A stretch of DNA of 64,000 bases, taken from the NCBI GenBank assembly GCA_030062745.1, contig CP099846.1:21134621-21198620 (forward strand), in the 5' to 3' direction. Below are positions 5,587-55,370 of this stretch, piece by piece. Both the position numbers and the translations under genes were made by a program. The stretch's first letter is position 1. Every line of letters starts with the position of its first letter. The notes under the pieces are model-generated. The model searched no databases, had not been told where the DNA came from, and worked only from the letters and a program-made list of their open reading frames with translations. The DNA is from Capitulum mitella. Lineage: Eukaryota > Arthropoda > Thecostraca > Pollicipedomorpha > Pollicipedidae.

Positions 5587-6927
5587 TTAACCAGCGCAGG
5601 GTTTCGTTCTAACGCGCACTTGAAGGGGGGCACAAAAGTATCCTCCGATCTCGGAAACGGAAAGAGCTAGAGACATGAAATTTTATGGACTGGGTGGGAC
5701 GAGAACGATTTACACTGTGTGCATTTTGCATGACCGTAGGTCAATATATTCAAGGTCAAATGGGGTCGAAAAATCAACTTTGGACACTTTCTGGGCCCGT
5801 ACTGGCCATTCCGAACGACTTTTCGAACGAAACGGGAAAATGGTGTTTGTTTGAGTATTAAAACGTGGAATACAACAATTCCCATTCATTTGACATCTTC
5901 ACTGAGGTTTTTGGTCCAAGGTCATGCCAGGTCATTGACATATGGTGCCATTTTTTCATCTTTTGCAGATCAGATTTCGGGCAACTTGGGAAAGCTTGAA
6001 TGTATATAAGGGCCCTACACTCATCTTTTGGCGCATTTTCAGTGAAAGTAGGCAACATCGGTACATTCGGTGACTTCCAGCATTTATAGTTATGTATATA
6101 TGTATATACATGTACATATCAATGTATGGATATATGTATATGCATGTACATATCAATGTACATGATGTCAATGTGCCAAACGTGTTTCTGTTACTGTCTT
6201 TGAATATATATTTCATGCAAATCGACATATTGCAAGGCAAATCTGGACTAGGCCACAGAATAGTTGCCCTTGGCCTCTGATGACCTTGACCTGAAATGTG
6301 CCCACGTGTGTTTTTATTAGGGCCTTTAAATGCATATGTTATGTGCATGGACATGTCTGAAAGCAAATTTGGGCCAGGTCACAAGATATTTGACCTTTAC
6401 CTTTGATTTCCTTGACCTTTATTGACCTTGGTATTCGTAAGTATACCGAGGTAAGCGTAAGCGTATCAGTGTGTGCATACGTGTTTTTATTAGGGTCTTT
6501 GAATGCATATTTCATACAAACCGACATGTTGCAAAGCAAATCTGGATCAGGTTACAAGCTGGTTAACCTTGACCTTTGATGATCTTGGCCCGTATTGACC
6601 CTGGCTTTGGTCTTGGTACATGCTTCACTTATGCCGGAATGATGTCGCCTGATTGTATGCAAATGGTAATCTTAGGTAGAACGCTGGTCCTTTCAGAAAG
6701 TTCCCATTTATCACTTCAACCGTCGTTTTCGTTATGTTTTTCTGACTTCAAATGTTTGAAAGTTCAAAAATTTCCGACCGATTTTTGATTTTTCGGCGTC
6801 AATCGACGAGTTATTCAGTTGCAATAAATGTCACAAAGTGGCAGCAACCGGCTCCTATCCGTTCTCGAGATATTCGAGAAAAATACGTGGGGGGCACAAA
6901 AAGACCCCCTCCTAGTGCGTGTGTTAA
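5587..6927. mobile_element. TTAA-ended element with subterminal G/C hairpins (copy H)
   Basis: The left end reads TTAACCAGCGCAGGG and the right end GTGCGTGTGTTAA, so the 1.34-kb unit is bounded by TTAA. Near each end lies GGGGGGCACAAAA followed by a C- or TCC-rich partner, in matching inverted context with CTCGAGAAC/ATCTCGG nearby. No transposase reading frame is visible. TTAA boundaries with C-rich tips are the hallmark of piggyBac-type nonautonomous elements, and that assignment is an inference. The interior holds a short tandem repeat and several TGACCTTGA motifs. Confidence 0.5.
6175..6600. repeat. Three tandem diverged units, about 125-175 bp
   Basis: Three related blocks begin near 6180, 6304 and 6479. 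Each reads CGTGTTT...TATTAGGG/TACTGT, then TTTGAATGCATAT, then GACATGTTGCAAAGCAAATCTGG. Each ends in a GACCTTGACC-type motif. They lie inside the 5.6-6.9 kb element. Confidence 0.65.
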
Positions 6928-7084
6928 GTTAGCGACATGTGGGTATTTGGATTCAACGTTGAGTTCCGATGATATGTCACACAGCGCACACTGATAACGA
7001 ATATGCGGTCTGTTTTGCTCTGTCTCAAATGGTTTGACCTTCAGAGGCCGAAAAAGAAGTCAAGCGGTTGCCACAGCCACCTAA

Positions 7085-8760
7085 AGACTATCAGCAAAAA
7101 TAAGGTACCATGTGAAGGCCAGGCATACATTCCAGCGTGGGCCATTGATAAGCACCTTCCAAAGTCAGTTTTAAAAGCCACATTCATGGTGAGATGACGG
7201 GGTAGCGTTGCCTGCCGCTGTATGGGAATGATGTGCATAAACAGATTGTCATTTGAAAGTCCATTCCAGCCTGGACTCGAAAGAACACGTGAATCAAGAC
7301 CAGAATTCAAGGCCAAAAGACGGGGTACTGCCTTGGACCTTGAATTGATGTGTAATGTCCCGCTGTGTAGAACTAATGTGCATAAATAGGGTATCATCTG
7401 AAACCCAGATATTCATTCCGGCGTGCACTGCAAAAATACAACCCTCAAGGTCAGCTGTTTGGGTCAAGCCAAAGCAAAAAAATATTTATGCCAGAAAGCC
7501 AGTTTCAGAGTCAAAGGGCAGGGTACAGTTGTGCTTCCATTGTATCGAACGGATGTGCTTAAATAGGATGTCATCTTAAAGTCAGGTATTCATGCCAACC
7601 TGGGCTCTCAAAAAACTTGTGAGTCCAGGTCAGACTTGAAGGTCACGCTCAAGGTCGAAGGATGGGGCACCACCGTACTGCCGCTGTATGGGATTGATGT
7701 GCATAAATAAGGTGCCATCCGAAAGCCAGGACGAGGCCAAAGGTTTTTCAGATGACACCGGCTTTCAGACAACACTACATTTTTGCACATCAGTCGTATA
7801 CAGCGGAATCCCGTCGTTTGGCATTGAATATGAATTTAAAGTTTGGCTTGGATCCACGTGTTTTGTGAGGCCAGGCGGGAATGGATACCTGGCTTTTGGG
7901 TGACACCTATTTATGCACCTCGGTCCCATACAGTGGCAATACGGCGATACTCCGCCCTTTGACCTTGAAATTTTGGCGTTTTTGTTTTCGTGGCCAAAAC
8001 AGCTGGCCTTGAAGGGCAGTATTTTTGTAGCTCATGCTAAAACGGATACGTGGCTTTCAGATAACACCTTTTTCGTGATAGTCCCTTACAGTGACAGTAC
8101 GGCGGTACCCCGTCCCTTGACCTTCAATGTGACCGTGAAGTTTGACCTTGATTCGGAGGTTTGGGATCCCAGGTTGGAGTGGATACCTGGCTTTCAGATG
8201 ACACCATATTTATGCACACCAGTCCCATGCAGGGCCATCAGGGCTGTGCACCGTCCTTTGGCCTCGAATGTGGCTGAACTTTGACCTTCATTCACGTATG
8301 TTTTGGAGTCCGGGCTGGAATGGATACCGGGCTTTTAGATGACAACCTATTTATGCACATGAATCCCACACATCGACAGTACTGCGGCACCCCGTCGTTT
8401 GGTCGTGAATGTGACTGTGAAGTTTTACCTTGATTCACGTGTTGATGCACACCAAGGCTGCAATGGATGCCTGGCTTTCAGATGACTCGCTTTTTATGCG
8501 CATTAGTCTGATACAGCAGCAGTACGGCGATACCCCGCTGTTTGACCTTGAGTTTGACCTTGAAGCTGGTGATTGATTTGCATGTTTTTGAGACCTCAGA
8601 CTGTAATGGATACCCGAATTTCAGATGTCGCCCTATTTCTGCTCATCAGTCCCATACAGCGCAGCATTGTGTCACCTGTCCTTTGACCTTGAATATGGCC
8701 TTAAAAGTTGATCTTCGAAGGTGTTTTTGACGGCCCAGGATGGAATGTATGCCAGGCTTT
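7085..8760. repeat. Degenerate satellite, about 140-160 bp, with orientation switch near 7735
   Basis: From about 7735 to 8760 the unit reads GGATACCTGGCTTTCAGATG, then TATTTATGCACATCAG, TCCCATACAGC, CCCCGTC, TTTGACCTTGA, at starts near 7880, 8041, 8185, 8325, 8470, 8605 and 8742. From about 7085 to 7735 the same unit occurs in reverse complement, with GATGTGCATAAATA anchors near 7214, 7370, 7550 and 7695. The two half-arrays therefore meet head to head. Units are roughly 70-85% alike by eye. No protein is encoded. Confidence 0.75.
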
Positions 8761-9049
8761 TACATGGTTTGTAGTTCTGCTTTATTCTTACTGATACATG
8801 ACTTTATTTTTGCTGATAGTCCTGACGTGGCTGTGGTACTACTTGATTCCGTTTTTGACTTCCGGAGTCCCAACCATTTGAGATAGTGTAAAATGCACCG
8901 CATGTTCGCAACCAGCGGGTGTTGTTTGACCGTTTGCTCGCCAAAGGGGCCCACTTGGCTTCCAGGGGGCATGAGCCCTGTGGACCCCTCACCCCTGTTG
9001 GGTGATGGGGCCAGACGACACGCATTCTCTCGAGGGCATGCCATCGTGA

Positions 9050-10020: not shown

Positions 10021-10061
10021 AATCGGACATACCACTTAAGCGTCGTGATTTTGCTTGCTCC

Positions 10062-11270
10062 TCAACCCTATTCTCGGAGGGCTAGACGGTATGGCCGATT
10101 TCCGGCATGGGGGGCGAACTCGCCCCCCAGATCTCGAGAACTACACATCCGATCTCATCGCAACAAACGACAATCGATTTGGCATGACGTAAGCTACATT
10201 TTGATAAAACGGTTTTCAAAAGTTTGAAATGAGTGGATACAGGGGCAAAAAAGTCAAAATGGGGATATTTTTGGACTTCTTATAACTCCCTTGTTTATGG
10301 GCCGATTTTGATGAAATTGGCATGAATCGAGAGATTTGTATCGCACTGTTACCATTGGTCCATCCATTTGAAATTTTGAGAAAATTCATTGGCGTTCACA
10401 GGGTTTCAAAGAAGGAGGATTAGGTTTTCAAAAACTGAATTAACAAAAAAAGTCAGAAACACTTTTTCGGCTTCTGTTAGTCATGTTATGCTGAAGAACC
10501 ACAAATCGTAATGCAGCGTTTGTATAACGAAAGCATAGGCGGTGCCAGGGACATGAAAAGGAGAACTGTCATGGTCACATGTTCTTCAGATCCACTTGCG
10601 ACCTTTCACCTTAAATGACCTCCAGTGACCTTCAAGTCACTTGGAACGATCTCGTATGCATTTAATATTATCTGAAAACGTTTCCAATCACCTGAATTCA
10701 CTCTATTCCTGAAATTCCATTTCATGGTCCTGAAATTCCATTTCATGGGTACGCGCACTGACATTTTAGGTCATAGCTCCGTGACCCGACCTGATATCGA
10801 CCTGAAATTTGATACACAAATGGAGGACAACCTTCTACGTGATACGTATTCCGGGTTTGTCATTTGAAAAAAATATTGCCAGAATTTTTCCTATGAAACC
10901 AAATTTTGACTTTTGACCTTGACGTGACGTTGGAAAGTAACCTCACATGAGCAAAATTGTATTGATATGTTGCCTAACTATTTACCTATACATCCATGTA
11001 AAGTTTCAAGTTCTATCGTAAAAACGCCATTTTTGGCAGTCATTTTCCTTTTACCCTTAACAGGGCCAAAAATGCCCTGAGGTGCCTCCCAAAAACGTTG
11101 CCTGGCTGCGCTCCTGAGCAAAGGAGAATTACAAAATTCTGTCACAGTACGTAGAAAGAATAGCTAGGAAGTCAACAGGTTTCGTGGAGCTGGACCAAAA
11201 ACCCTGGAATTGGCAAGCAAAAAAAAAACCGAGGGGGCGGATTCAGCCCCCCTACCAGGGATAGGGTTAA
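10062..11270. mobile_element. TTAA-ended element with terminal hairpins (copy D)
   Basis: The right end reads CCAGGGATAGGGTTAA (TTAA at 11267-11270). The left end is TCAACCCTATTCTC, a one-base variant of its inverse. Near the left end is a nine-base-pair stem GGGGGGCGA/TCGCCCCCC with loop AC (10109-10128). Near the right end is GGGGGC/GCCCCC with a 7-base loop (11233-11251). The length is 1,209 bp. No transposase is visible. It is assigned to the same architectural class as copies A, B, C and H. Confidence 0.5.
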
Positions 11271-12139: not shown

Positions 12140-12227
12140 TTTTGGTGTTGCTATGGCAACGCAATTCTGCGTGACGTCTGGGAAATCTGGGAAATAAATA
12201 TCGGCCGAATGTACAAAGGAGTTAGGA
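12140..12227 (+). promoter_or_regulatory. mextli promoter/5' UTR exon with RFX X-box and CRE-like site
   Basis: GTTGCTATGGCAAC at 12147-12160 fits the RFX X-box (two half-sites, 2-base spacer). TGACGTCT at 12172-12179 is one base from a palindromic CRE. A donor-like GGA|GTGAGT follows at 12228, and the first coding exon has an acceptor TTTGCAG ending at 12325, so a short untranslated exon ending at 12227 with a 98-base intron is likely. The transcription start cannot be fixed. Confidence 0.5.
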
Positions 12228-30200: not shown

Positions 30201-30680
30201 TGGGAGAGCCCAGTCAAGAGCTTGATTGCTCTGATTGGAATCAACATGGCATGTTGGTGAGTGTTATACTTTGCTGTACCCATAATCCAATCAAAACGTT
30301 TTGAAGATCTTTGAAACACCAACTGGGTTCTATTCAGCAAAGTTGTGTGCCCACATATTGCTTTTTTAGTTGCCCTTTATTATTTTTGTTTTAACTGATC
30401 AACTGCTGTCAAGTAAATGCCACACAGTGCTCCATGCTGTTTGCAGATGTTTTTAATTCCATTATTGTAGAGGATTTCATCATTAACCTGTCAATTCGAC
30501 TCCAGGAAGGTGGGGCGATGGGATATATGGACAGTACCCTGAGAGGTTTTTTCAAATATTGCAAGAGAATGAACAAAGAAAGCACCACAAAATTTTGTAT
30601 ACCATGTGCTTGGTCCCTTTTACATCTTGTATCTGCATTTTGAATTTGGATCAATTCAGATCTGCGACCTAGGTCAGGAT
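27300..30680. other. CpG-depleted block covering 5' intron and first coding exon of the RETREG-type gene
   Basis: By reading, only about ten CpG occur in about 3.3 kb, against hundreds expected from neighbouring density; TG and CA are enriched. The right edge falls inside the TTAA element copy C, near 30680. Apart from the exon at 30051-30256 I see no coding exon. Confidence 0.65.
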
Positions 30681-33600
30681 TGCACAATGGAACTGCATCC
30701 AGAAAAGTTCGTTTTTGTAGCATTTTCAAAGAAAAAAACAAAATATCAAAAAACCTTCCAAAAGATTAATGATCCTGGTAGGTGCAAAAAATTAAAACTC
30801 GTGTTTTCGAAAACTTAAGAGTCATTGGCCAAAAGTGAAGCCCATTTTCAACTTATGTCGTCGTTTTTATTGACGATTTTTTCGACGTTTTGGGTATGCG
30901 GTGGAGGAGACATCCCGTGATCGTCATTTGGTGAAGTATTATTAACCTGCAACCTTTGACTTAAGGTCAGAACACCAAAACTGGTATGAGCGAAAATGCA
31001 CGGCCCTCAGAATCGCCGATGAATGACGTGGAACGGATAAAAATGGCAGAAGTGGCTCTCAAAGCTGCTAATGATATCATTAAGTTCAACTAGTGTCACA
31101 GAAATGCATAGCTTGCAGGTAGTCTAGCTCGGGCAAGTAAAACTCTGCTAGTTGAGTATATTTATAACTTCTGATTCTTTTTTTCAAAAATTAAACGTGC
31201 AAAGGAATAGCACGAGTCCCCAGTGTGAAGGAATGTAAATTGGTAAGGTTTATTCCACCAAAATAGAAGAACGCCAAAATTTGTTCCCGTCAATTTCACC
31301 CCGCCTTCAACGCCGGCGGCGACGGCGCTGTGGCGCAGGATCGCACTATCTTTTACTCGACGTTCCTGCGTAAATGTTCAACAGATCGCAGATAATAGAC
31401 ATGTCACGGCATCTGCGGACATTCATCTATCCGCTCTTACCTTTACCTAGTCTTTATTAAACCCAGCCCGTGAGATTTAGGGTGTTCCTCTGATCCATGT
31501 AGTCGGGTATGAGAACAAATATGTTGGACGTAAATGGTCTAAATATCCTTCAGAAATATGAAGTACCCAACTTTCGAGCTCGTCTTTCACGGGCTTTCCA
31601 TTGGCATCGCTATTTTTATCGTGCGACATATCGTTGGCTAGTTAGAGGGGGTTGGAGTTAACAGTCCTTCCCACCGGCGTGTATGCATGGTGCGGACTGC
31701 CAGTTGGACGCGGATTTAAAGACTAAGGTAGACAACTTTTAGCAGCATTTACTGCTCAGTGGACTTACGAATCAGCCATAAAGGTATTAGATAAAAACAT
31801 GATGGACATGCTTTGTGATATCTGGCATTATTTAGTAAATCATGATATAGCAAATAGCTTGATCATATTTTTCTGCAGATGTTTTGTGTTGTGCGCCTGC
31901 CCTGGGTTCTTTTTCTTTGCATCAGGTTGATCCGGGTGTATCAGCTGAGCCCAGTGTTTGTTCTGGCTGCTTGGGCTCTGCTGCACCTGCTGCGCACCCA
32001 GTGGCAAGAGAGCATCTGGCCAGAGATTCGTGTGCCACCAGCAGTGGCTGAGGACACTGAGCCATGGACAGAAGTTGACACCAGGTATGATTGGATGCTC
32101 CAGTTACCTTCAGTACCCATATCTCTGGCCCTGTCAAAGCTATCAGAGGTTTGGGGTAGATACTGCTGGTTAGAGTTGGCCAGGTATATATGGTACAGAT
32201 AGGTAGCGTGCTGTGTTGAAAAACCGGCGTTTTGTGGCGTCGAGATACACCAAAAAATGTGCTCCGACATATGTTTTGTACTCCAAAAGCCGCTTATTTA
32301 TAATCAAAAAGCTGCATTATAAGCATTTTGAGAAGTGGCATCTGTCATGCCATGATACCCATTCAGACGTCTCTCAGTTCCGTATGTTTTCCACAATGGG
32401 TTGGGAAAATCACGTCTTCAGCCGATTTCTCCGGGCAATGCTCAGCCGCCACAGCTGGCCTTCTCGCTCTGACCGTATTATTTCTCTCAAATTGCCGTGC
32501 CTCAGGGACTGTCAGCAAACTGATGAGATTTAAAGAGGTTACAGGAAATATCTTCTCCCATAATGTGTTAGCCGACAGTGGATCTAAAAAAGAAAAATTA
32601 TAATGAAAGCCACAAGGTTTTGTAACGAAGTTTATGTCTTTTTTTTTTGTTTTTTTTTTTGGGTATGCATGGTGCACCCGTCGTGTGTTATTTGTGTTTT
32701 GAAGCAGTCTGGCAGCTCTACCGAGCAAAAAGTTGTTTGATGAATTATCGTGCAACGTTTCTTTTCGCCGTGACAAACGGCATGCACCCATACAACGATC
32801 ATGCAGTTAACTACGACTCGCTGTCGTTGAATGATTCCATCTGTTGTCGGGCGGGGCGCCAGCCATGACTTGACTGGGCAACAGAACGCAAATGAGCGGT
32901 TTACGTGAGCTCAGTGGATCGGAAAACCTGGTCATTATCAGCTACGTCTGCACATGTCAGGTCTGGCCACTGTTGTATTTCTAACCTGGCATGTCACAAC
33001 TTTTGGAGTTAGAGTTCGTGAATCGGCGATGAGTCGATGGGTCCATTTGTGGGCGCAAAATGACGTCAGTAGTGGGCGCGCCCGAAAACACCAATAAACA
33101 ACAACAGTTATCCATTTGTGATGAAAGAGGGGCATGTCCAAACAAAATGTCAGTGGACCCGGGAGGTGACACACGTGTCCTCCTTGGTGTCGAAAAGTAG
33201 GCTGTTTGTGCTCCTGAGCTGTTGTTTTTGTTTCCCAGTAGGCGATTTGCTAAACACGCATTAAGCCAGCAGTCCCAGGGGCTTTGTGCACTGCATCCCC
33301 CTGAGGTCTGTCCCCACGCACCTTCAAACGTAGGCTGCCTCTGTTCCTCGCTGCTCCGCGAGGTCACAGGTCACCGGAAGCCTGTCGGCAGACCGCCTCA
33401 GGCCGGGTCGTCGCGCCCCGCAGAGGTGCGTCCGGGGCAGCATCCCAGAAAGTCCCATCCGGGGGCTTATCACGCATACTGCATCCCACTGTGATGACCT
33501 TGGCCCATGTCCCAGTGTGTTTTGTCTTATTGCATCTGTCACTGGCAGGGTGCTGAGTGCACCAGAAATGATTCACTACGTACAGAAGTTGCGTGAGGTC

Positions 33601-36600
33601 ACTGCGTCTCTGAAGAGCAGTCTTGCTGAGATGCGTTCTACCACGCCATTCATGGTAAGTAATGCTTATTGATCATCTGTTTGATGTGTCCCGGAGAGAG
33701 TAGAGACAGCCACTTTGGATTGAGTTGGTCATGTTGGGTTCGGCAGCAAAGTACCTTGCCTATCGGTTTTTAAGTGGGTAAATCAGCATTCGTAGGAGAC
33801 TATTTATTGTACAAAGATGTAGCCCATGTCGCCAAAGGTGATTCATTGTGTGAACGTACCTTGTGTACCAAAGTGCATTGCATAGCAAAAACTTAAATTT
33901 ACTACCAGACTTATAGTATGGGACTTATTCTTTAATTACAATGGAATTATTAAGAGGCAGAAAATAGACTGATCATATTTGGAACATGTTACCACAGGGT
34001 CACGTGGTTGCATGTTCTAAAGAATTAGACCATCTCTCCTTTGGTGTACAGGTAGTCAGGTGCTGCTGATGAATGTCTTTTATATGTGGAAAGGGCAGCC
34101 TTTCTCTATGATACTTTGTGCTTGTGTCCGATATTTAGAACGGGTGATGTTTTGGTTGTAGAGACAACAGTTTATTGCCTGTCATTGGCGTGGTGATGTG
34201 TCATGTGATACAAGCATTCATGGAATGCCCCAGGCTGGGAGAGTAGTCTTCGTTGATGCTTCCACTGACCATGTTACCTGCATTGGCTGCACGTCCCGGA
34301 TCTGGTCGCCTATCTGCAGCACTGTCCCTACCGTGTCGGTGTTCTTTGGTCCGGTTCCCACAGTATGGGGACATCGGTGTGCAGCGTTCTGCCGCGTTCG
34401 ACCTACCGCCCGCAGTGGTCAGTTCTTCTGACCTATCTGTCTATCGCCGTTTGGTGCCACTGACTCGTCTATAGCAGCCAGGTGCCGCTGTCATCTGCCT
34501 GTGGTGTGTGTTGTTGACTCTGCTGTCTGTAGCAGTCTGGTACGTCTGTGTTGTCTGTAGCAGTCTGGTATCTATGTGCTGTTGTCTCTAGCAGTGTGGT
34601 GCTTCTGTGCTGTCTGTAGCAGTCTGGTACCTCCGTGCTGTCTGTAGCAGTGCGGTACCTCCGTGCTGTCTGTAGCAGCCTGGTACCTCCGTGCCGTCTG
34701 TAGCAGTCTGGTACGTCTGTGCTGTCTGTAGCAGTCTGGTACCTGTGTGCTGTCAGTAGCAGGCTGGTATGTTTGTGCTGTCTGTAGCAGTCTGGTGCTT
34801 CTATGCTGTCTGTAGCAGTGTGGTACCTCTTTGCTGTCTGTAGCAGTGTGGTACCTCTGTGTTGTCTGTAGCAGTGTGGTACCTCTGTGCTATCTGTAGC
34901 ACTCTGGTACCTATGTGCTGTCTCTAGCAGACTGGTACTTCTGTGCTGTCCATGTGCAGTGTGGTATCTCTTGTCTGTAGCAGTCTGGTGCGTGTGTGCT
35001 GTCTGTAGCAGTCCGGTACGTGTGTGCTGTCAGTAGCAGTCTGGTACGTCTGTGCTGTCTGTAGCAGTGTGGTACCTCTGTGCTGTCTGTAGCAGTCTGG
35101 TACCTCTGTGCTGTCTGTAGCAGTCTGGTACCTCTGTGTTGTCTGTAGCAGTCTGGTACTTATGTGCTGTCTGTAGCAGTCTGGTACCTCTGTGCTGCCT
35201 TTAGCAGTCTGGTACCTCTGTGCTGCCTGTAGCAATGTGGTACCTCTGTGCTGTCTGTGGCAGTGTGGTACGTCTTTGCTGTCCGTGTGCGGTCTGGTAC
35301 CTATGTGCTGCCTGTGGCAATGTGGTACCTCTGTGCTGTCTGTGGCAGTGTGGTACGTCTTTGCTGTCCGTGTGCATTCTGGTACCTCTGCGCTGTCTGT
35401 AGCAGTGTGGTACCTCTGTGCTGTCTGTAGCAATGTGGTACCTCTGTGCTGTCTGTGGCAGTGTGGTACGTCTTTGCTGTCTGTAACAGTGTGGTGCCTC
35501 TGTGCTGTCTGTAGCAATGTGGTACCTCTGTGCTGTCTGTGGCAGTGTGGTACGTCTTTGCTGTCTGTAACAGTGTGGTACCTCTGTGTTGTCTGTAGCA
35601 GTGTGGTACCTCTGTGCTATCTGTAGCACTCTGGTACCTATGTGCTGTCTCTAGCAGACTGGTACTTCTGTGCTGTCCATGTGCAGTGTGGTATCTCTTG
35701 TCTGTAGCAGTCTGGTGCGTGTGTGCTGTCTGTAGCAGTCCGGTACGTGTGTGCTGTCAGTAGCAGTCTGGTACGTCTGTGCTGTCTGTAGCAGTCTGGT
35801 ACCTCTGTGCTGTCTGTAGCAGTGTGGTACCTCTGTGCTGTCTGTAGCAGTCTGGTACCTCTGTGTTGTCTGTAGCAGTCTGGTACTTATGTGCTGTCTG
35901 TAGCAGTCTGGTACCTCTGTGCTGCCTTTAGCAGTCTGGTACCTCTGTGCTGCCTGTAGCAATGTGGTACCTCTGTGCTGTCTGTGGCAGTGTGGTACGT
36001 CTTTGCTGTCCGTGTGCGGTCTGGTACCTATGTGCTGCCTGTGGCAATGTGGTACCTCTGTGCTGTCTGTGGCAGTGTGGTACGTCTTTGCTGTCCGTGT
36101 GCATTCTGGTACCTCTGCGCTGTCTGTAGCAGTCTGGTGCCTCTGTGCTGTCTGTAGCAATGTGGTACCTCTGTGCTGTCTGTAGCAATGTGGTACCTCT
36201 GTGCTGTCTGTGGCAGTGTGGTACGTCTTTGCTGTCTGTAACAATGTGGTACCTCTGTGCTGTCTGTAACAGTGTGGTACCTCTGTGCTGTCTGTAGCAG
36301 TGTGGTACCTCTGTGCTGTCTGTAACAGTGTGGTACCTCTGTGCTGTCTGTAGCAGTGTGGTACCTCTGTGCTGTCTGTGGCAGTCTGGTACCTCCGTGC
36401 TGCCTGTAGCAGTCTGGTACCTCTGTGCTGTCTGTAGTGTGCAGTGTGGTACCTCTGCGCTGTCTGTAGCAGTCTGGTACCTCTGTGCTGTCTGTAGCAA
36501 TGCGGTACCTCTGTGCTGTCTGTGGCGGTGTGGTACGTCTTTGCTGTCCGTAACAGTGTGGTACCTCTGTGCTGTCTGTAACAGTGTGGTACCTCTGTGC

Positions 36601-38620
36601 TGTCTGTAGCAGTGTGGTACCTCTGTGCTGTCTGTAGCAGTGTGGTACCTCTGTGCTGTCTGTGGCAGTCTGGTACCTCCGTGCTGCCTGTAGCAGTCTG
36701 GTACCTCTGTGCTGTCTATAGTGTGCAGTGTGGTACCTCTGCACTGTCTGTAGCAGTCTGGTACCTCTGTGCTGTCTGTAGCAATGTGGTACCTCTGTGC
36801 TGTCTGTGGCAGTGTGGTACGTCTTTGCTATCCGTGTGCGGTCTGGTACCTGTGTGCTGTCTGTAACAGTGTGGTACCTCTGTGCTGTCTGTAGCAGTGT
36901 GGTACCTCTGTGCTGTCTGTAACAGTGTGGTACCTCTTCTGTTTGTGGCAGTGTGGTACGTCTTTGCTGTCCGTGTGCAGTGTGGTACCTCTGTGCTGCC
37001 TGTAGCAGTCTGGTATCTTTGTGCTGTCTATAGTGTGCAGTGTGGTACCTCTGTGCTGTCTATAGTGCGCAGTGTGCCCCCGACTGACTCGTTGGGCCGT
37101 GCTCGGCAGTTCTTCCTGGTGTTGAACTCAGCCTGGTCGCTGCTGTACGTGCTCAGCCGGTGGGTGTCGGGCGCAGCGCTCTGGCACGCGCTGCTGACTC
37201 TGGCCGTGACGGTGCCCGGCGCTCTGCTGCACCTGGTGCCGGACCACTGGTGGTGCCGGCTGCACCAGCTGCTCACCGACGGCCGGCGCGCCGTCGCCAA
37301 CTCGGGTAGGGGCCCGCCGGCGACCGCGGCCGCCCGTTGTTTTGAGGCCCACCGCTGGGCCGTTCGGAGGATGATTTGCGCTGGGATCTGGCCCCAGAAA
37401 AGGCCAACGTTTGTTGCCCTGCCTCGCGGTCCCTGTGGGCAGGTGCATTTGTTGTCATGGAGTCTTTGATGCGTGCTGTGGCTTTGAACGTCTTTCTGGC
37501 TGGACTTTGGTCTTTTTGCGTGCACGGTATATACAGACCACTAGATATTAGGTACAAGTTACTGAAGTGGTTACCGGTGCTGCGATGTGGGGCCGTTTTC
37601 GTCGTTGGTAAATCGTTGGTAAGTGGTTATACTGGCGTCAGAGGTGGCAGATGTGGAGGAAATTTAGTGTCGAAATGGAAAAATTAGACAATTATTGTAA
37701 TTTCTGCCATTGCTCAGTTTTTGTTGGGCGACTTTTCCGTAAATTGCAAGAAAATCTGAGCACAGCGTCATTGGGACTGCTTATAGAGCACTGGAATTTT
37801 ACTGAATTACCTGCTGTCGGCGTTATGTCGCTGATAGCTGACAGCTAATAGCCGGCAGCAAACGGCACAGTTCCGTTTGCGCCGTCTGACCGTGACATGC
37901 CCTCGGCGCAGGTCTGCTTCAGGACGAGGACTGCGAGCGCGACTTCGTGCCGGAGAACTCGCCCGAGACGCAGGCCTATCTGGACGTCATGGCTGACATC
38001 ATCAACGGCCGCGAGCCGTCCCCAGGCGAGTGTCAGACCAAGAGTAGGACGCCACTAGGCGGGCCGGGCGGACTGGCTTTTTTCACAGCTCTCAGGAACG
38101 GTGTCCGGTCGCAGCTCAGGTAGTGCTGACTTGTGGACTGGCATGTGCTTTGCCGGCGTGTGTGGCCGGGTAACGCGGGACGGCAGGGTCGGGGTGCTCG
38201 GATGCTGCGAGGGCGCTGCGCTGGTAAGAGGGAGGGGATTGAAGTACGGATGCTGTTTCCTCCCGTTTTCGCCATGCGGCCAACGGCGTCGGACTTGTTC
38301 CAGATTGTCACGCGGTTGCCGCCTTCTCGTCCGGACTGGACGCTGCGCCGGGCTACGACGAGGAGAGCGAGGACGACGAGCCGCTGGCGCCATCTGTGGA
38401 GCGGCCCGCGGAGCTAGAGTTGGGTCCGTCGGCGGCCGAGGGCGCCGCGGCGCTCGGTCTGCGCGCCCTGGACTCGGCCGGCGCTGCGTGCGGGCAGGTG
38501 GCACGGGCCGCCAGTCAGCTGGTGTCGGCCGTCTACCAGCCGCCGCCGCCGGCTGACGAGAGCGACTCGGACTTCGAGCTGATCGGTGACGAGGAGACGC
38601 TGGCGGCGGCCGGCCACTAG
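30051..38620 (+). CDS. RETREG: Reticulophagy regulator (RETREG/FAM134)-type ER-phagy receptor
   Basis: Predicted 365-aa ER membrane protein. Exons: 30051-30256, 31926-32084, 33549-33654, 37110-37305, 37912-38025, 38304-38620; all phases agree. The reticulon-homology domain spans about residues 48-222: WESPVKSL (51-58), a first hydrophobic hairpin ending QESIWPEI, a cytosolic linker with the conserved LSAPEMIHYV, and a second hairpin FFLVLNSAWSLLYVLSRW. The acidic C-terminus carries SDSDFELIGDEE, an LC3-interacting motif with core FELI (351-354). The family bends ER membrane and links it to Atg8/LC3 for selective autophagy. The ATG has purine -3 and G +4. Exon 5 uses a GC donor (CCCAG|GCGAGT); all others are GT. 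Exons 4-6 are GC-rich while exon 1 is CpG-poor. Intron 3 holds a 2.6-kb minisatellite. Which vertebrate paralogue it equals cannot be decided. Confidence 0.88.
30483..31720. mobile_element. Decayed TTAA-type element (copy C) in RETREG intron 1
   Basis: The left end TTAACCTGTCAATTCGACT aligns with the left end of copy A. Shared blocks follow: CTGAGAGGTTTTTTC, TTGCAAGAGAA, GACCTAGGTCAGG, CATCTGCGGACATT, TTTTTATCGTGCGAC and GTTAGAGGGGG. The right end is decayed (CGCGGATTTAAA). The length, about 1.24 kb, matches copy B. The hairpins are eroded. The CpG-depleted block ends inside this copy. Confidence 0.55.
34470..37080. repeat. 28-bp minisatellite, about 90 copies, in RETREG intron 3
   Basis: The unit is about GCAGTGTGGTACCTCTGTGC plus TGTCTGTA. 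It contains the palindrome GGTACC and a CTCTGTGCTGTCTGTAG stretch that mimics a 3' splice site. Because 28 is not a multiple of three, the three frames cycle and long stop-free stretches arise on both strands; these are not genes. The array ends about 30 bases before the exon 4 acceptor at 37109. Confidence 0.95.
34861..36314. repeat. Higher-order duplication of 727 bp within the minisatellite
   Basis: The 727 bases starting at 34861 recur from 35588 nearly unchanged, including rare unit variants such as TATCTGTAGCACTCTGG and CTGTCCATGTGCAGTG. Further right, about 284 bases from 36313 recur from 36597. This indicates recent block duplications. Confidence 0.85.
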
Positions 38621-39900: not shown

Positions 39901-40139
39901 TTCCCTAAACATCTTTCGGCGGAGTCATGGGTCAGCATCAATAGGTCAATGCACCATATCTTGAGTTCATTGGGCAGAAATCCATTGTCATTGCTCGCAC
40001 AATTAACCGTTTTCCGTAAGTCAGCTTGAATGGCTGATCCTCGTTACATCTTGCAAGACAATGAATTGGTACCTCACAATCCCATGACGTGGTACTGCAG
40101 ACCGTCGCCCGTAACCTGCGTTCAGGCCCTGGGGACCCG

Positions 40140-41235
40140 CCGGTCACCATCACCCGTCTCCTCACCCACACGACGGTCCGCTATCACCCGTCTCCTCACC
40201 CCCACGACGGTCCGCTATCACCCGTCTCCTCACCCACACGACGGTCCGCTATTACCCGTCTCCTCACCCCCACGACGGTCCGCTATCACCCGTCTCCTCA
40301 CCCACACGACGGTCTGCTATCACCCGTCTCCTCACCCACACGACGGTCCGCTATCACGCGTCTCCTCATCCACACGACGGTCCGCTATCACCCGTCTCCT
40401 CACCCACACGACGGTCCGCTATCACCCGTCTCCTCACCCACACGACGGTCTGCTATCACCCGTCTCCTCACCCACACGACGGTCTGCTATCACCCGTCTC
40501 CTCACCCACACGACGGTCCGCTATCACCCGTCTCCTCACCCACACGACGGTCTGCTATCACCCGTCTCCTCATCCACACGACGGTCTGCTATCACCCGTC
40601 TCCTCACCCACACGACGGTCCGCTATCACCCGTCTCCTCACCCACACGACGGTCTGCTATCACCCGTCTCCTCACCCACACGACGGTCTGCTATCACCCG
40701 TCTCCTCACCCACACGACGGTCCGCTATCACCCGTCTCCTCACCCACACGACGGTCTGCTATCACCCGTCTCCTCATCCACACGACGGTCTGCTATCACC
40801 CGTCTCCTCACCCACACGACGGTCCGCTATCACCCGTCTCCTCACCCACACGACGGTCTGCTATCACCCGTCTCCTCACCCACACGACGGTCCGCTATCA
40901 CCCGTCTCCTCACCCACACGACGGTCCGCTATCACCCGTCTCCTCACCCACACGACGGTCCGCTATTACCCGTCTCCTCATCCACTCGACGGTCTGCTAT
41001 CACCAGTCTCTTCACCCACACGACGGTCTGCTATCACCCGTCTCCTCACCCACACGACGGTCCGCTATTACCCGTCTCCTCATCCACACGACGGTCTGCT
41101 ATCACCAGTCTCTTCACCCACACGACGGTCCGCTATCACCCGTCTCCTCACCTACACGAATGGGCCGCCGTCACTCGTCTCCTCAACCACACGACGGTTC
41201 GATATCATCTGTCTCCTCACCCACACGGCTTATCC
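40140..41235. repeat. 34-bp minisatellite, about 32 copies
   Basis: The unit is about ACGACGGTCYGCTATCACCC plus GTCTCCTCACCCAC; successive CGACGG anchors are 34 bases apart (for example 40171 and 40205). C/T at one site and a CATCC variant recur every 204 bases (six units), giving a higher-order pattern near 40350-40860. Copies at 40960 onward and at the edges are more diverged. Two overlapping frames of over 400 codons are open only because the unit lacks stops in every frame. Confidence 0.95.
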
Positions 41236-42931
41236 TTGTCACGCACTCGTCTGCGCCCTGGAGGAAAGTGATCGAAATTATTCCGTTTGTATCGTCTGGT
41301 CCAGTTATAGGGAAGTGCTGTCTCTACTGCTCTTTTCAAGAAATCAGTAAATGAATAGTTGAACTTCTGTCTTCAGCAATTCTTTTGTAGCATCATTTTT
41401 CATCACTCGTTTCAATTCCGGGCGTCGAAATACGGCTACGTTTGGCCCCTTTTTGTCGACGAAGCAGCCATCCCTTCAACAGGTGACGCGTGTAATTTAG
41501 TGGACAGTTCCCGAGCTCTGTCTAACGCAATTCTTCCGCCAAGTCCGTCCAGTCATCATTACGCCGATGAACAACGGGTGTACGACACCCACGGCGAACG
41601 GCAATCTCGTGGTCATGCGCACAAACGAGGGACTGTCCGCCTCCAGTTTATTGTGCAAATTGGTAAGAGTCAGCACAAGCTGGACGTCGAGATAAGTCCG
41701 AACACGCTCGACGTCATCATGCGTCATCGGTCCCAAGCACGGGCGACGCATCGCTGAAGGCGGACAAAACACGGCGCATGTCTACTTAGCGCGACGCACG
41801 AGTTCCCTTCGAGCCCTGAAACGACTCCGGCGGGTTGCAGCCTGTTAGCAGGCGGCGGGTAACGCGACGCAAGGACAGTCTGAGGAACATCGAGCTCATA
41901 TAGCCGACCCGTTTCGTGGATGCAACCCGACCCACACCTAAAAACTACTTAAAAACTACACACCCGTCGTTGTGGACACGCTAGGAGCGATATGTCTGCC
42001 CGTGATATGACTGCCACCGTCTGAGGACAGCGCCCGGCCCGCGGCTCGCCGCACCGGGCACCACCAGGCCGCCGCCCCTGCGGACACGGCGCTCTGCTGG
42101 CCACCCACGGACCAACATCACCCGCCCGCCCGCGGCCGAACAGCTCGGTGATGATGCACGCACGCACGCCGCACGTATCTACATGGTTGACCTGCGCATC
42201 ACGAGTCGGAGCAGAATGCCACGCGTCAGGGAGGCTTTTCCACAATCCGAGCCCGTGATTGACGGCGTCAGGCCACACGGGTACACTTGTTACTCGCAGG
42301 ACGCGGTACGCGACACTGTACGTCCTGCAGCTAAGAGGCGACAAGCCTGAGATGTAAGCAGCACATCATCATGCTTACTTCGAATGAGAGGCAGTCATTA
42401 AGAGCACTTAAGTGGGGCGCCAGCGTCACACAATCTCTACAAAGAAGGTGTGATCTAGTTTGAAATATACAAAAAAACAGTCTGGTGGGGAACGCCGTTG
42501 CCGCGGTTGGCACCGCACGGCTACGGTTCGGCTACGCCGGTACACCCTGTCTCACACAGAGACAAAGGCATTCAAATGACACTTGCTGTTGCAATGCAGA
42601 GATCAGGTTTACACACTTGTGAGATCCTGTCTAAATTCCTTGAAATGGGACGAGGTCCGCAAAAGCGCGGACGGTCCAGTCGTTTCATCGTGAGGATTCA
42701 ACCTCGTCCCCACCAAGACTCCATACGGTCATCTGACAGCGACGAGGCTCTGCACCGAGGTGCCACATTCACGGTTCCGCACAACCGACGAAACTATCAG
42801 ACCCTCGTGTGAAGCTACAACAGTCCGAGGTAAGGCCATCCTGGTGAACGTTGAGCATGTTTCTGACGACCACATCCGATCACTGGTCCGAGCGGGAAAT
42901 TCGGCTTCCGGGAGTTGTGAGCGATCAGAAC
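41236..42931 (-). terminator. 3' region of BTB-ZF gene with AATAAA on minus strand
   Basis: The minus-strand stop is at 42934-42932. The first AATAAA read on the minus strand is at 41652-41647, about 1.28 kb downstream, and is a candidate polyadenylation signal. Open stretches on either strand show no family resemblance. The segment is CpG-rich like the coding exons. Confidence 0.4.
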
Positions 42932-45230
42932 TCACGTGTCGGAGTTCAGAGGGTCATCGCCCGGCTGTTCCGACATGGCGCCACCTATCGGCACATCGAG
43001 GCAGCTGTCGCTGGCCGGCGCGACGGCCAGCTGCTCGGCGGGATCGGGTATCGGTGGCTCCGCCAGGAGACGGCCGGCAGCCATGGCCTCAGCCACGGCG
43101 CTCACCCCCATGTGCTCCATGTACTTGAGTATTTTGCGAAGCTCGGACTGTTTCATGAGTACGCCGTGCTTGTTGCGCAGGTGAGCGTTGAGGTTGGTGA
43201 CGCGGGAGCACAGTTTACGACACACCCAGCACTGGATGCTCAGCTTATGCGACTCGAAGTGTTGGCGGAACGTCATCAGATTGGCGTAGGTTCGAGAGCA
43301 AACGCGGCACACGAACTTCTTCTCCACTGAAACAGCAATGAACAACCAGCGTTAATGCCATCGCATGAACGGCCCAGCTGCCAGAAGGCGGAGCAAAAAG
43401 GGCCTACGGATACGCTCAAATACCCTCCCCCCCGGCCACGGTAGTCCGTCTAGATTCAACAGGTCATAATTCGGGACAGAAGGGAGGCCATGCGGCGCCA
43501 GGCCATGAGGATGTCTCGCGCTTCGAAGTCACGGTTGTTCACGGACGACAGATGTCGCGGCCATCGGGCAGTGGTTTGGGTCGGCTCACGGCCAGGACCG
43601 TCTGCTGCCTACGCGGCAGAGCCACTGACCTAGTCCCGAGCTGCCCTGGATGTCCATCATCTCCGTCAAAGATTCATCGTTCCCCGCGTCGAAGGAGTCC
43701 ACTGAAACAGCCGGGACCGGCCCGTTATGCTTGGCACGGTGACTCACACCACAGCGCTTGCCTCCGCTCTGATCAAAACATACCTGCAGTGCCGACACAC
43801 TGCGACAGTCCCAATAGGCTATAACAAACAACAGTCAACTAGAACAGCACACGACAACCAGTCCCAACAAACCGCGGCCATCGCCAGACGGTGCTGAACG
43901 CCGAAGAACGACGCGCAGTCGCAGTCGCGCTTTAGACTTGGCCGGAAACCGCGAACAGACAGTCCCAGTTTCCGCAGAGACATCCCACTAACGGCGTGCC
44001 GGGAGCAGCCCGGTCCGGCCGACCCACCTCCGTTCTTTTTGGCGTGAGCGGCGTGCTGGGCGAACGGCTGTGCCAGCTCGTCGTCCTCCTCGCTGGCCGC
44101 CTCCTCGGCTGTGTCGTTGTCAGAGAGCGGAGCCGGCGGCGCGCTGGCCGCCTCCTGCAGGCGGCGCCGCCGCTTGGCCGGCGGCGGCGACTGAGTCCGC
44201 TCGGGCGGCGGCTCGGCGCCAGCCAGGCCCGGAGACGCCGGGCACGAGTCGGCGCCGCTGAGATCGTGCGGCTCCACCTGCGGCCGAACCCGTCCCGCCG
44301 TCACGTTCGTCCCCGAGCACGCGTCAACCAACACGGAATGTCACCGCAGCACCAGACTGTTCTACAGTAACGTCTGCGTACGTCGTTTTAAGCTGCTGGG
44401 ACCGTGATAATATGAGGATACGACGTTTTGACGAGGCCGGATAATTGTCAAACCTTTGGTAACCGTGGCGATGCCACGAGAGTAAACAAGTCCTTAAGTT
44501 AGTCAACACACGCTATAAAACTATGTTCATATCACCAACGTCCCAATTCTTCAAAAAAAAAAACATCAAAATAGCGCTTATTGCTGGTACATGACCAACA
44601 ATACCCACCTGATGATTGCCCTGATCCCCACAAGCATCCTTTGCAAGGCCTTTTATTTTGAGCATTTCAGCCACAGCCAGGAATGAGGTAAATCGTTTTT
44701 GGTCCACATTAACTTGTCCACTGTAGATGAACTCGATTATTGCTACGAGATCGTCGAATTCTGCATCCTTAAAGAAGAACACCGGGTCACCGGGATGCGT
44801 CTGAAAAAGACAGACCTCCTAAGACGACACGACAAATCCACAAAACAAACAATCCGCCGTAAACACGCCCCCGACACTGAACTGCAGTGACGAAACACCG
44901 CACCACCGTTCACCGGACTATATCTGGGCAGAGAAGGCCGGCTGGCCAGGAGGCTGAGCCGGGAGGCGCAGCGGCGCCGCCTCCAGGGCACTAACGTCTG
45001 CGTAGACCGACACCGGCCGGGCCCGACGGCGCCACACCCACCCTGAGTACTTCGCGGAAGTAGGGGCTGCAGGCAGAGAGGACCAGCCGGTGGGCGCGCA
45101 GCTGGCGGCCCTGGCAGCACAGCGTCACGTCCACCAGCTCCTGCATCTCGCGCAGCGTGTCCAGCAGCGACGTCAAGCTGCTGTGGTAGTTGTTCCACTT
45201 GAGGCAGAACCGCTGGCCTTCCTGCAGCAT
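42932..45230 (-). CDS. BTB domain plus two C2H2 zinc fingers, transcription factor
   Basis: Predicted 365-aa nuclear factor. Coding exons on the minus strand: 45230-45042, 44800-44609, 44277-44028, 43701-43630, 43326-42932; phases agree. Residues about 8-115 form a BTB domain of the arthropod Broad/Tramtrack/Lola type (FCLKWNNYHSSLTSLL, VDVTLCCQGRQLRAHRLVLS, ACSPYFREVL, FDDLVAIIEFIYSGQVNV). A proline-rich linker contains a basic KRRRR (162-166), a likely nuclear signal, followed by acidic EEDDE. Fingers: C241-C244-H257-H261 and C267-C270-H283-H288. BTB mediates dimerisation and the fingers bind DNA. Exon 4 (72 bp, phase 1-1) could be skipped in frame. An acceptor at 45237 six bases before the ATG implies an upstream untranslated exon. 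Only one finger exon is visible, although related loci often have several alternative ones. Orthology to a named gene is not clear. Confidence 0.85.
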
Positions 45231-48990: not shown

Positions 48991-48999
48991 TAGTTCAGG

Positions 49000-49810
49000 G
49001 CTGGGGAAACACTATGTGGAGGTCGTAGTCTTTTTAAAGTTGTAGCTGTGGTTTCTGGTGGAATAAAGACCAGATGAAATTAAGCTATGTCTGACATGGC
49101 TACAAGACAGTGTTTTGTTCCTGGAAGATGTTTGTTTGCGTGCCTACCGACGGGAAGATTCGTAGGATGTGGGCCAGGGGGCACAATGGCATTTTGGGTC
49201 TGCTGTGGGGACCTGTGAGGACCATTTTGAGGTGGGTACAAAATCAACATATGACAACTATAGCTCTGGTTTATCCTGCAAGGATGTCAGGGATGAGGTC
49301 GGAGGGGGACATTGACGTATGCATCCCAGGTTAGGTAGGTAATACATATTTGTCATGCTGTTAAGATAGTTTCTCATTGTCCTGAAGCAAATCATTTATT
49401 GTAAGCTACCTGAGTAAATAAAATTATTGGTTTATTGTATGTTTCATTTAAAGCTTTAAACCTTCCAAAGAATTCTTCCTTCTCCCAAAGTCCCAGATGG
49501 TTTACAAGAATGTTCAATCTAGCTTGATTAGCATAATCTGTACTGTATTGCCATCCAGGTAACACCTGATGCAGTTGCTCATCCTTTCAGCTGCAGTGGG
49601 GTTTGCAGCCTGATGAAGTACAAGCATAGTGTAAAGTTGTTCCTGAACAATGGAGGTATTCCACATGGGATGGAATGCTAGGCTGGATGGTATGAAGGCT
49701 TCAACAATGCTGACTGCTCTAGAGCAGGCAACGATTTCAATAAAATTCAGGTTTGTTTTTTATCACAATCCAATTCCAAACAGTCACCTTCAATTGCAAT
49801 GTGCCATGTA
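49000..49810. other. Non-coding, partly CpG-depleted
   Basis: No exon was recognised. From about 49330 to 49800 there is almost no CpG, a fourth and smaller depleted patch that ends at the left boundary of the TTAA element copy A. Confidence 0.4.
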
Positions 49811-50519
49811 TTAACCTGCCCCGACTGGGGGGGTTGACCGCCCACCTGAGGTTTTTCTATGATTGCAAGAGAACAAACAAACGCAGCGCCACGAAACTTC
49901 GCGTATCTTTTGCTTGATCATCTTACACCTTGTGTCAAGGTTTTGGCCCCAGGTCAAGTCAGGTGCTTGACCTAGGTCAGGTCAAACAGACCTATGTCCA
50001 AAAAAGTTTAACGCCCTGTAACTTTTTTGGAACACAAGATTTCAGAATTTAGGCATTTTAAATTTAAGCACGAGAAACCATCACAAGAACCACTGAGATC
50101 GATAAAATTTGCATGGATAGGCTTATGTCGCGGAAATAAAAGAACGCTAAAATTAGTTCTTGTTAATTTTATACTGCGTACGGCTGCAGCGCCCGCCGAC
50201 AGCCGGCGTGAAAATTGCCGTGTCTTTAACTCAACGTTTCGGCGTATATATTCAGCAAATCTGGGAAATTAGACTTGTATCGGCATCTGCGGACTTTTAC
50301 CTGTGCGTTGGTGCCTTTACCTATGCGTTGTTAGTCGCAACCCTTGAGATTCAGTCCGTTTCTTGGTCTCATGCAGTCGGCTCTGCTCTTCACGAGCTTC
50401 CAACGTTGTACTTATTTTTATCGTGCGAGCAACCGTTCGTGAGTTAGAGGGGGCGGTCAGCCGCCCCCCCCCCCTTGTCGGGCGTGATCGCCGCCGACCC
50501 ACGGTCGAACGCGGGTTAA
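49811..50519 (+). mobile_element. TTAA-ended element with hairpins (copy A, internally deleted)
   Basis: It starts TTAACCTGCCCCGACTGGGG and ends GCGGGTTAA (TTAA at 50516-50519). The right hairpin is an 8-bp stem GGGGGCGG/CCGCCCCC with loop TCAG (50449-50468). Sequence blocks match copy B in reverse orientation: GACCTAGGTCAGGTCAAACA, AGACCTATGT, CTGCGGACTTTTACCTG and TCGTGAGTTAGAGGGGG. At 709 bp it is shorter than B, so its centre is probably deleted. Confidence 0.65.
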
Positions 50520-53039: not shown

Positions 53040-53830
53040 TCAGTCTAGGTACCTGACCCTTGGAACTTAACATTCGATGTCAAATTCAAGGTGAAAGGAA
53101 GCGGAATGCTAGAATACTCAAACTTACCGACATTCGTTGGAAAGAACCACCAGAGATGTAAGACAGTAAGGAATATCAGGTAATAAGATGAAGCGTGTCA
53201 ACATCGTGTCAATCGCGTCAGCTAGGTCACCTGACTCGTCAAGCGTGACCGTGAAGGTTAAAGTCAAATGCAAGGTCACTTGACGGAGAATACGAGAACA
53301 CCCAAGCTTACCGGTATTCGCCGGAAATTACTCCAGACCATAAACCGTGTCAAGAAGTCAGGTCACCTGACCCTTGCAGCGTGACCTTCAAGGTGAAAGA
53401 ATGGGAAATGTTAGACCGTTGAAATTGACCGGCATTCGACGGAATTTACCACTAGAGCGTGTCAAGATCAGGAATCAGTCATGGTTTCCTGACCCGTCGC
53501 TCAGGGTCAACCAACTGGCACCGCTAGGACGCCCAAATTTAGCAGTATTCGTCGGAGATAGCCACTCCGTATAAAGAGGGTATCAGTATCTACTCATTCT
53601 GGGTCACTTGAGCCGTGATACTTGGTAATTCAAGGTCAAAGAACGAGAAACGCCACAACGCCCAAACTTACCGGTATACAGTCCCACAAGGGTCAAAGGG
53701 AGATAGCCGGTGTCAGTCTATGGTGAGCCAGGTTAACCAGGCCTGTGCGGATGACCTTCAAAGTCAACATCAAGTTCAAGCTAAACCGGGAAGAACAAGT
53801 GATGTCACGATCCTCCATTGTCGTCCAAGA
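53040..53830. repeat. Degenerate satellite, about 110-185 bp units
   Basis: Anchors of the form TTACCGGTATTCGCCGGAAAT recur near 53127, 53310, 53427, 53538 and 53667. Each is preceded by a GGTCACCTGACCCTTG/GTGACCTTCAAGGTGAAAG-type block. Units are strongly diverged and unequal in length. Confidence 0.6.
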
Positions 53831-54155
53831 TGAAGTTTGTACTTGTGTTACATTGCAGACTGCATTCACAAGGGACTCTTAATAGGAAAGGGAATAGTGT
53901 GATTATTAGATCTGTACAATACTAATGTAACACGCAACTTTCGTCGTTCTAAATCCACGAAACTTTCACAGTAGTATTTCCACGTTCTGCATATGACATG
54001 TGCCAAGTTTCAACAGCGTAGATGAAATGGTACAGAAATGCCGGCTTAGAAAATATGTTTTTTTTTGTACTTGTCTTAATTATTCATCAATATGACACAC
54101 AATGTAAATGCCCAAAACCAAGGTTTCGCTTTTGGTCACCGTTTTGTCTGTTTGT

Positions 54156-55370
54156 TTATCCCGCGCACGGCCGTCGGTCCGTCTCGAACATGGGCGACTG
54201 GGGGGAGGGGGGCAGTTGGCTGCCCCCCTCTAACTCACGAACGGTTGGTCGCACGATAAAAACAAGCATACCGTTGGAAAGCCTGTGACGAGTAGAGCTC
54301 GAAACTGGTCTAGATAATATGTAAGCCAATTTACGCCCTATATATGTTTTCTCATAGCCGACTGCATGAGACCGAGAAATGGCCTGAATCTCAAGGGCTG
54401 TGAGTAATAACGCATAGGTAAAGGCATCAGCGCACAAGTAAATGTCCGCGGATGCCGGTACACGTCTAATTTCCCCAGATTTCTTCAGTATATACGCCGA
54501 AACGTTGACTTAAAGACACGGTAATTCTCCCGCCAGCTGTCAGTGTGCGCCGCTTCCGTATGCGACACCAAATTAACGGGAACTAATTTTGGCGTTCCTT
54601 TATTTCCGCGAAAAAAGACGATCTATGTCAATTTTATTTATCTTTGTGGTCCTTGTAATGGTTTCTGATTCTTAAATTTTAGAAAAATTCATTAGTTACC
54701 AATCTACAAAGTTGGCGGAGCTTTATTCGCGAGAACCTGTTTACTTCCAAAAATAAGCTACTTTTTCAAACGTTTTGAGGTTGCTGGTATTAATTACGTC
54801 TGTGCAAGCTATTTCTGCCATTTTGTACCCATTCTGAGTAATTCATCGTCGATTTTGACGGTGGTACATTTTGGTCCACTGCAGTTATTCGTGACCTGAC
54901 CTCAGGTCAATGGCTGGAAGTTGTTGATACTTTGCCCAATGACAGTAACTAGATGTCTGCTTCACTCCACACTAAAAATGTTATGGAATATTCCGTCAAT
55001 TTCCGAAAAAAACCGCGATATGTCTTAAAAATGGGCTTGACCTTAGGTCAATGACCCGGAAAATTCCGAAAAATCTGAGATAGCAGATTTGTTGCATCTA
55101 TCACGATCACTAATCCTTGAAAGTATTATTGAGATATCTTGTTTTGCGAAAAAGTTAGAGGGCGCTAAACCTTTTTTGACATAGGTCTGTTTGACCTGAC
55201 CTAGGTCAGGCATCTGACGTGACTTGAGGTCAAAATTTTGACACGAGATGTAAAATTAATGGAGCAAAAGGTGCACAAAGTTTCGTGACTCTGTGTTTGT
55301 TGGTTCCCTCGCAATCCTAGAAAAACCTCAGAGGGGGCAGTCAACTGCCCCCCAGTTGGGGACGGGTTAT
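54156..55370 (-). mobile_element. TTAA-type element with hairpins (copy B, full length)
   Basis: The outer ends are TTATCCCGCGC and GACGGGTTAT, each one base from TTAACCC/GGGTTAA. The left hairpin is a nine-bp stem GGGGGGCAG/CTGCCCCCC with loop TTGG (54207-54228). The right hairpin is GGGGGCAG/CTGCCCCC with loop TCAA (55333-55352). It is inverted relative to copy A and 1,215 bp long. It contains GACCTGACCTAGGTCAGG. No transposase reading frame is visible. Confidence 0.65.

Follow-up and report, generated by a model that had tools for sequence, protein, structure and literature searches.

In Trichoplusia ni piggyBac, a palindromic internal repeat of 19 bp occurs at each end, though not at equal distances, and is bound by a dimer of the CRD (PMC7351741). 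In its cryo-electron microscopy structure, the core domains lie on the first 16 bp; on bp 17-33 of one end, over the palindrome at bp 25, sits a CRD dimer, and the DNA is bent by about 40 degrees (PMC7351741). The CRD of piggyBat has a different fold and binds a sequence-unrelated palindrome near the same place at the left end (PMC11707139; preprint PMC13405395). Furthermore, some piggyBac-like elements have inner inverted repeats that are identical (STIR) or differing (IIR); that study worked with arms of 5-15 nt and spacers of 2-10 nt, after the model of invertebrate elements (preprint PMC12324416). Here we analyzed a 64,000-nt stretch of the Capitulum mitella genome (contig CP099846.1, positions 21,134,621 to 21,198,620; hereafter, the window), in which a first-pass annotation had named five elements (A, B, C, D and H). 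These five, plus a candidate end (E), were examined. With a probability of about 80%, A, B, C and D are non-autonomous piggyBac-type DNA transposons that resemble miniature inverted-repeat transposable elements (MITEs) and carry sites for a CRD dimer. We read them so because of their TTAA-type duplications, CC tips, lack of recognisable coding sequence and piggyBac-like palindrome spacing, in agreement with the first-pass annotation, which had found their TTAA tips to fit piggyBac-type nonautonomous elements; judged solely from the ends, they would belong to the piggyBac superfamily. The annotation had also taken the arrangement as undescribed, but the T. ni repeat, piggyBat and the STIR/IIR repeats cited above precede it, and sequence-variable subterminal repeats in piggyBac-like elements are already in print (PMC12324416).

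Elements, flanks and coding content

The elements are located in the window as follows.

49811..50519, plus strand: element A, 705 bp between TTAA and TTAA; internal gaps shorten it relative to B and C
54156..55370, minus strand: element B, an inverted copy of A/C, 1211 bp between TTAT and TTAT
30483..31719, plus strand: element C, a more divergent copy of the A/B family, flanked by TTAA and TTAA; palindromes not recognisable
10062..11270, no strand assigned: element D, interior unrelated, flanked by TCAA and TTAA, tips CCCTAT at both ends
5609..6927, no strand assigned: element H, re-bounded from CTAA to TTAA (start at 5587 in the first-pass annotation), interior unrelated; assignment weak

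The five elements had been described as one family. By blastn within the window, A and B share 78-83% identity in three pieces, with B inverted, and C shares 65-83% with A or B (65% over 1147 alignment columns with B). D and H had no match elsewhere in the window at E-value 1e-3, except for repeats within H. On these alignments, A, B and C represent a single element in three copies, whereas D and H are unrelated inside and fall outside the proposed family. A is the shortest copy because three internal stretches held by B and C (188, 249 and 60 letters in B; 177, 249 and 71 in C) are missing from it; in the alignment, A is gapped there over 190, 252 and 72 columns. Inside H, three repeats of about 125 bp each, 71-78% alike, occupy 6170-6604.

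Flanking duplications were TTAA/TTAA for A and C, TTAT/TTAT for B and TCAA/TTAA for D, duplications of the TTAA type expected of the piggyBac superfamily; the left edge of H is doubtful. TTAT on both flanks of B is what one insertion at a non-canonical site would leave. Insertion of piggyBac at non-canonical sites such as TTAT is rare. For H, ungapped identity between the tip and the right end is 5 of 12 bases whether the element starts at TTAA 5587, as first annotated, or at CTAA 5609. The start at 5609 nevertheless appears more plausible, because GCGCACTTGAAGGGGG, which follows 5609, lines up by eye with the right-end ACGCACTAGGAGGGGG when two bases are skipped.

CC starts both tips of A, B and D and the left tip of C; the right tip of C reads ATCC. 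A CC[C/T]T tip is "generally" present in piggyBac elements (PMC2872659). D has CCCT at both ends, which is this motif; A and B have CC[C/T]G at both ends, and the left tip of C is CCTG. Since Kolobok-type elements also duplicate TTAA (PMC9587614, PMC6004289), they were considered as an alternative source. Kolobok termini are, however, 5'-RR..YY-3' (PMC9587614), whereas A, B and D start with CC at both ends, and membership was rejected on this ground. In addition, the available parts of PMC9587614 and PMC6004289 describe no subterminal palindrome, and the word "subterminal" occurs 0 times there. We consider a Kolobok origin very improbable.

As to coding content, A, B, C, D and H were scanned against Pfam in six frames each (30 frames, stops read as X). 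No transposase match was found in these 30 frames, and therefore the five elements are non-autonomous as they stand. The single match was DUF2357 in D, with an E-value of 0.018, below its cut-off. The first 9 of 54 open pieces of at least 45 amino acids, scanned against Pfam, gave two weak matches (E-values 0.051 and 0.095), both to unrelated families on one open piece of C. Neither RNA families at the gathering threshold nor tRNAs were found in the window.

Palindromes near the element ends

We defined the axis distance as that from the first base after the duplication to the palindrome axis, and applied the same palindrome function to the T. ni ends as printed in PMC3078864 (LE also in PMC7351741). 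Each 90-bp end was compared with 300 dinucleotide shuffles of itself, over 12 ends or alternative ends; the p values are raw and per end. The palindromes and related run pairs are listed below.

50449..50468: long-end palindrome of A (right), GGGGGCGGTCAGCCGCCCCC, axis 57.5 bp from the tip, p 0.037
49827..49847: damaged short-end palindrome of A (left), best axis 23.0, p 0.385; absent from the two best palindromes in the axis measurement
54208..54227: long-end palindrome of B (left), GGGGGCAGTTGGCTGCCCCC, axis 58.5 bp from the tip, p 0.060
55333..55352: short-end palindrome of B (right), GGGGGCAGTCAACTGCCCCC, axis 24.5 bp from the tip, p 0.007
10109..10128: long-end palindrome of D (left), GGGGGGCGAACTCGCCCCCC, axis 53.5 bp from the tip, p 0.003
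11233..11252: short-end palindrome of D (right), GGGGGCGGATTCAGCCCCCC, axis 25.0 bp from the tip, p 0.040
6889..6909: weakly pairing G6/C5 run pair at the right end of H, axis 24.5-25 bp from TTAA
61690..61729, minus strand: candidate sixth end E, GGGGGGAAGACAGCTGCCCCCC followed by 14 bp and TTAA; G6/C6 run pair, axis 25.5, p 0.136

A G5/C5 palindrome was above, or nearly above, shuffling at 5 of the 12 ends or alternatives, namely, A right and both ends of B and D. Of the G5-6/C5-6 hairpins that had been reported near the ends, the palindromes are present at these five; at A left the palindrome is damaged, part of one arm being lost as is visible relative to B in the alignment. C showed no palindrome above shuffling (left p 0.967, right p 0.518), nor did H left at either candidate edge (p 0.585 and 0.399), and at H right the top palindrome lay at 53.0 (p 0.219), with that at 25.0 ranking second. 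B and D both combine a short end, with the axis at 24.5-25.0 bp, with a long one, with the axis at 53.5-58.5 bp, and the axes of T. ni piggyBac measured in the same way were 25.0 (LE35) and 53.0 (RE63). A palindromic internal repeat at fixed, unequal distances, an arrangement of the T. ni type that is not universal, is thus seen at both ends of B and D, at one end of A and at none of C.

At the five ends, 8-9 of 10 arm bases are paired and GGGGG..CCCCC is always retained. The loops had been described as differing between 2 and 7 bases. The span from the G run to the C run is in fact nearly constant at 20-22 bp (26 at A right, whose C run is long), and the apparent loop size mostly reflects inner mismatches.

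The window contains eight G5..C5 run pairs. Six fall at named ends, two each in B and D and one each at the right ends of A and H; another is E, and the last lies elsewhere (3169). When these run pairs were taken as the starting point, three of the eight (H, D and E) had an exact TTAA at 24-26 bp, against a chance of 0.021 per site expected from all window positions (P = 0.0005); a fourth (B) had TTAT at 24.5 bp. E was detected by a run-pair regular expression blind to TTAA, and the geometry of its right end is that of the short ends of B and D. Its left end was not found in the window; the TTAA at 61031, whose imperfect palindrome lies at 64.5 bp, is an unconvincing candidate.

Palindromes of this kind could simply be a chance product of G- and C-rich runs. 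Seven of the 12 ends or alternatives were not significant, and comparable palindromes were found off the elements, whereas p was 0.003-0.060 at the five ends against shuffles that keep dinucleotides, and the placement is common to two families with unrelated interiors. The off-element cases came from a looser scan of the whole window, which asked for inverted repeats of 19-22 bp whose arms are G+C-rich and pair at 8 or more of 9 positions. Among its hits were E (61690), the right end of A and the two ends each of B and D. On balance, we regard as very unlikely the combined reading in which the palindromes arise by chance and the paired change discussed below by chance or CpG decay.

Several results weigh against assigning these elements to piggyBac. 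The looser scan also hit 2575, 27741, 38537, 43010 and 44147-44186 off the elements, and 61158 in the tentative E span; such palindromes are not confined to element ends. A left and both C ends are without a recognisable palindrome, H and E are weak, and the long-end spacing of A and B (57.5-58.5) is about 5 bp above that of T. ni. The T. ni value and these elements were already known when the range of 24-26 bp was chosen. A palindrome scan that started from TTAA gave no peak at 25 bp over 542 of the 548 TTAA sites (three near the window edge and three with long AT repeats were dropped), and the 25-bp signal shows only when G/C run pairs are the starting point. Against a yardstick of about 12-19 bp for a piggyBac terminal inverted repeat, the two ends agree at 9 of the first 12 bases in D, 7 in B, 4 in A and hardly any (1) in C, as compared with 15/16 in T. 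ni. The fourth tip base of A and B is G instead of the T of the usual CC[C/T]T. Note that we did not treat the length of the terminal inverted repeat as decisive, because the tips of piggyBat, for which a 15-bp repeat was originally reported, are marked with only four identical nucleotides (PMC11707139, figure legend). Finally, no transposase-bearing copy was seen among the five named elements of the window.

Paired changes and the proposed role of the palindrome

The inner stem pairs had been said to differ between copies yet stay complementary, and this compensating change was taken as a sign that the hairpin itself is maintained. A versus B is the only homologous comparison for paired change. 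In their alignment, one stem pair of the long end is changed on both sides, from G-C in A to A-T in B, which corresponds to CGG/CCG at A right and CAG/CTG in B, where the latter is found at both ends. CGA/TCG of D occurs at its left end only, its right end being different, and is not homologous, so that it does not count as compensation. At the substitution level of 19.6% outside CpG (112/570), the chance expectation for eight stem pairs is 0.31 two-sided changes; on the assumption that one third to 0.6 of these remain complementary, it falls to 0.10-0.18. At the short end, A has lost part of an arm, so that the comparison is confined to the long end. As far as these sequences can tell, covariation neither speaks against a maintained hairpin nor offers real support for it, and the earlier conclusion, for which there is a single homologous pair, is not supported.

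The same pair was also considered under chance or CpG decay. It sits in CpG context on both arms, and of the 17 CpG changes between A and B that lie outside the palindromes, 12 are CpG-type transitions. However, 28 of 45 CpG sites are kept, about as expected of two ordinary sites at 19.6% divergence; CpG decay was therefore rejected as a full explanation. Since CpG sites are not lost faster than expected, chance suffices for the paired change.

If the palindrome were maintained for an extruded hairpin or cruciform whose structure is recognised, as the first-pass annotation proposed, the arm sequence would be free provided that pairing holds. The pairing of 8-9 of 10 arm bases at five ends and its survival through one two-sided change between A and B would agree with this, and cruciform binding by PGBD5 has been raised in a preprint, where B-form probes of piggyBac-like ends gave no band shift (PMC12324416). 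The arms are, however, far from free, as GGGGG..CCCCC at all five ends indicates, and that two-sided change is the sole one, set against the chance expectation given above. Furthermore, neither the span nor the distance to the tip varies much, a constancy that a hairpin would not require, and in the solved piggyBac and piggyBat complexes the palindrome is gripped as a duplex via two CRDs. We judge a structure-recognised hairpin to be very unlikely. The palindrome more probably serves as a docking site for a protein than as a newly evolved hairpin; transposase recognition, the other suggestion of the first-pass annotation, is the better of the two, given that the palindrome is placed like the CRD-dimer site of T. 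ni.

For the docking site, we propose that a piggyBac-type transposase supplied from elsewhere acts on these elements. Its catalytic core would hold the first ~16 bp, and the ~20-bp palindrome near bp 25, or bp 53-58 at the other end, would serve as a duplex site for a dimer of the C-terminal zinc-binding CRD, which would bend the DNA and help to synapse the unequal ends; we infer this protein binding, the bending and the CRD specificity from the analogy with T. ni and piggyBat. Two identical domains reading both arms would keep the arms alike, and if the CRD came to prefer another sequence, both arms at both ends would change in concert. A palindrome that is variable in sequence and fixed in place is most likely the expected trace of a diverging CRD.

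It is conceivable, albeit doubtful, that the CRD palindrome rather than the tip defines the elements moved by one transposase lineage in this genome. The idea arises because a GGGGGC-like half-site at one fixed distance is common to elements with unrelated interiors and differing tips, namely A/B with CCCG and D with CCCTAT, and perhaps also H and E. If it is true, arm turnover (CGG to CAG on both arms; CAG at both B ends) would record changing CRD specificity, and the copies would let the coevolution of transposase and site be followed. On the main reading, the apparent conserved hairpin becomes a recognisable transposase footprint, whose axis distance (about 25 bp from the tip at the short end and 53-58 bp at the long end) matches the solved T. 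ni case and could mark piggyBac-type ends by sequence where a transposase is absent. This use as a marker is a suggestion from two or three elements, and a scan from TTAA only does not show the 25-bp signal.

Neighbouring features and comparison with known systems

AGGTCA/TGACCT is dense in the elements, with 30 occurrences in 6388 bp (H 11, B 9) against 68 in the other 57612 bp; the tentative E span used for this count (61031-61729) holds none. A C2H2 zinc-finger open frame, minisatellites and dispersed repeats give the window a eukaryotic appearance. The remaining features of the window are as follows.

7212-8771: repeat units 137-177 bp apart, mostly 137-145, resembling a fold-back array; copies at 7212-7725 are in one orientation and those at 7862-8771 apparently in the opposite one, and 7361-7435 is 77% complementary to 8301-8375
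30000-30260, plus strand: possible host exon, weak RETREG-like match below cut-off
34451-37033: 28-bp minisatellite
40013-41298: uniform 34-bp tandem array, inner copies 94-97% identical to the reference, with two overlapping frames open for 413 and 421 codons
42932-43345, minus strand: possible host exon with C2H2 zinc fingers, Pfam zf-met above cut-off
58972-59170, 59689-59795 and 63607-63805: dispersed repeat, 82-88% alike

A 34-base pattern of the A/B/C core had 0 matches in viral contigs and 0 in genome contigs. The pattern TTAACCC..G5..C5 occurred at 13 viral-contig loci, which we set aside as terminator-like hairpins of other origin, a judgement made from the matched stretches and not from a test. 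The available part of PMC10954464 contained no further end sequences for comparison.

By description only, the elements are like MER75, MER85, Looper and Chilo suppressalis CsuPLE1.1, all from other hosts, whose two ends bear subterminal or inner inverted repeats of identical or differing sequence (PMC12324416). They also resemble the CMITEs of Acropora, piggyBac MITEs that are non-coding TTAA elements with tips varying between families; unlike A and B, these keep CC[C/T]T, and "palindrom" has 0 occurrences in the main text as available (PMC2872659). As for piggyBat of Myotis lucifugus, its imperfect palindrome lies 3 bp past the motif at bp 11-16 and is bound by a CRD dimer (PMC11707139), although piggyBat has three palindromes at the left end only, as compared with one per end in B and D. 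T. ni piggyBac (IFP2) differs in that its tips are well matched (15/16), it encodes its transposase, and its palindrome reads TGCGT..ACGCA instead of GGGGG..CCCCC. In other respects it is alike, with a TTAA target, a CCC tip and one palindromic repeat per end at unequal distances, the axes being at 25.0/53.0 in T. ni, 25.0/53.5 in D and 24.5/58.5 in B, and the same palindrome is found at both ends in T. ni, as is CAG/CTG in B.

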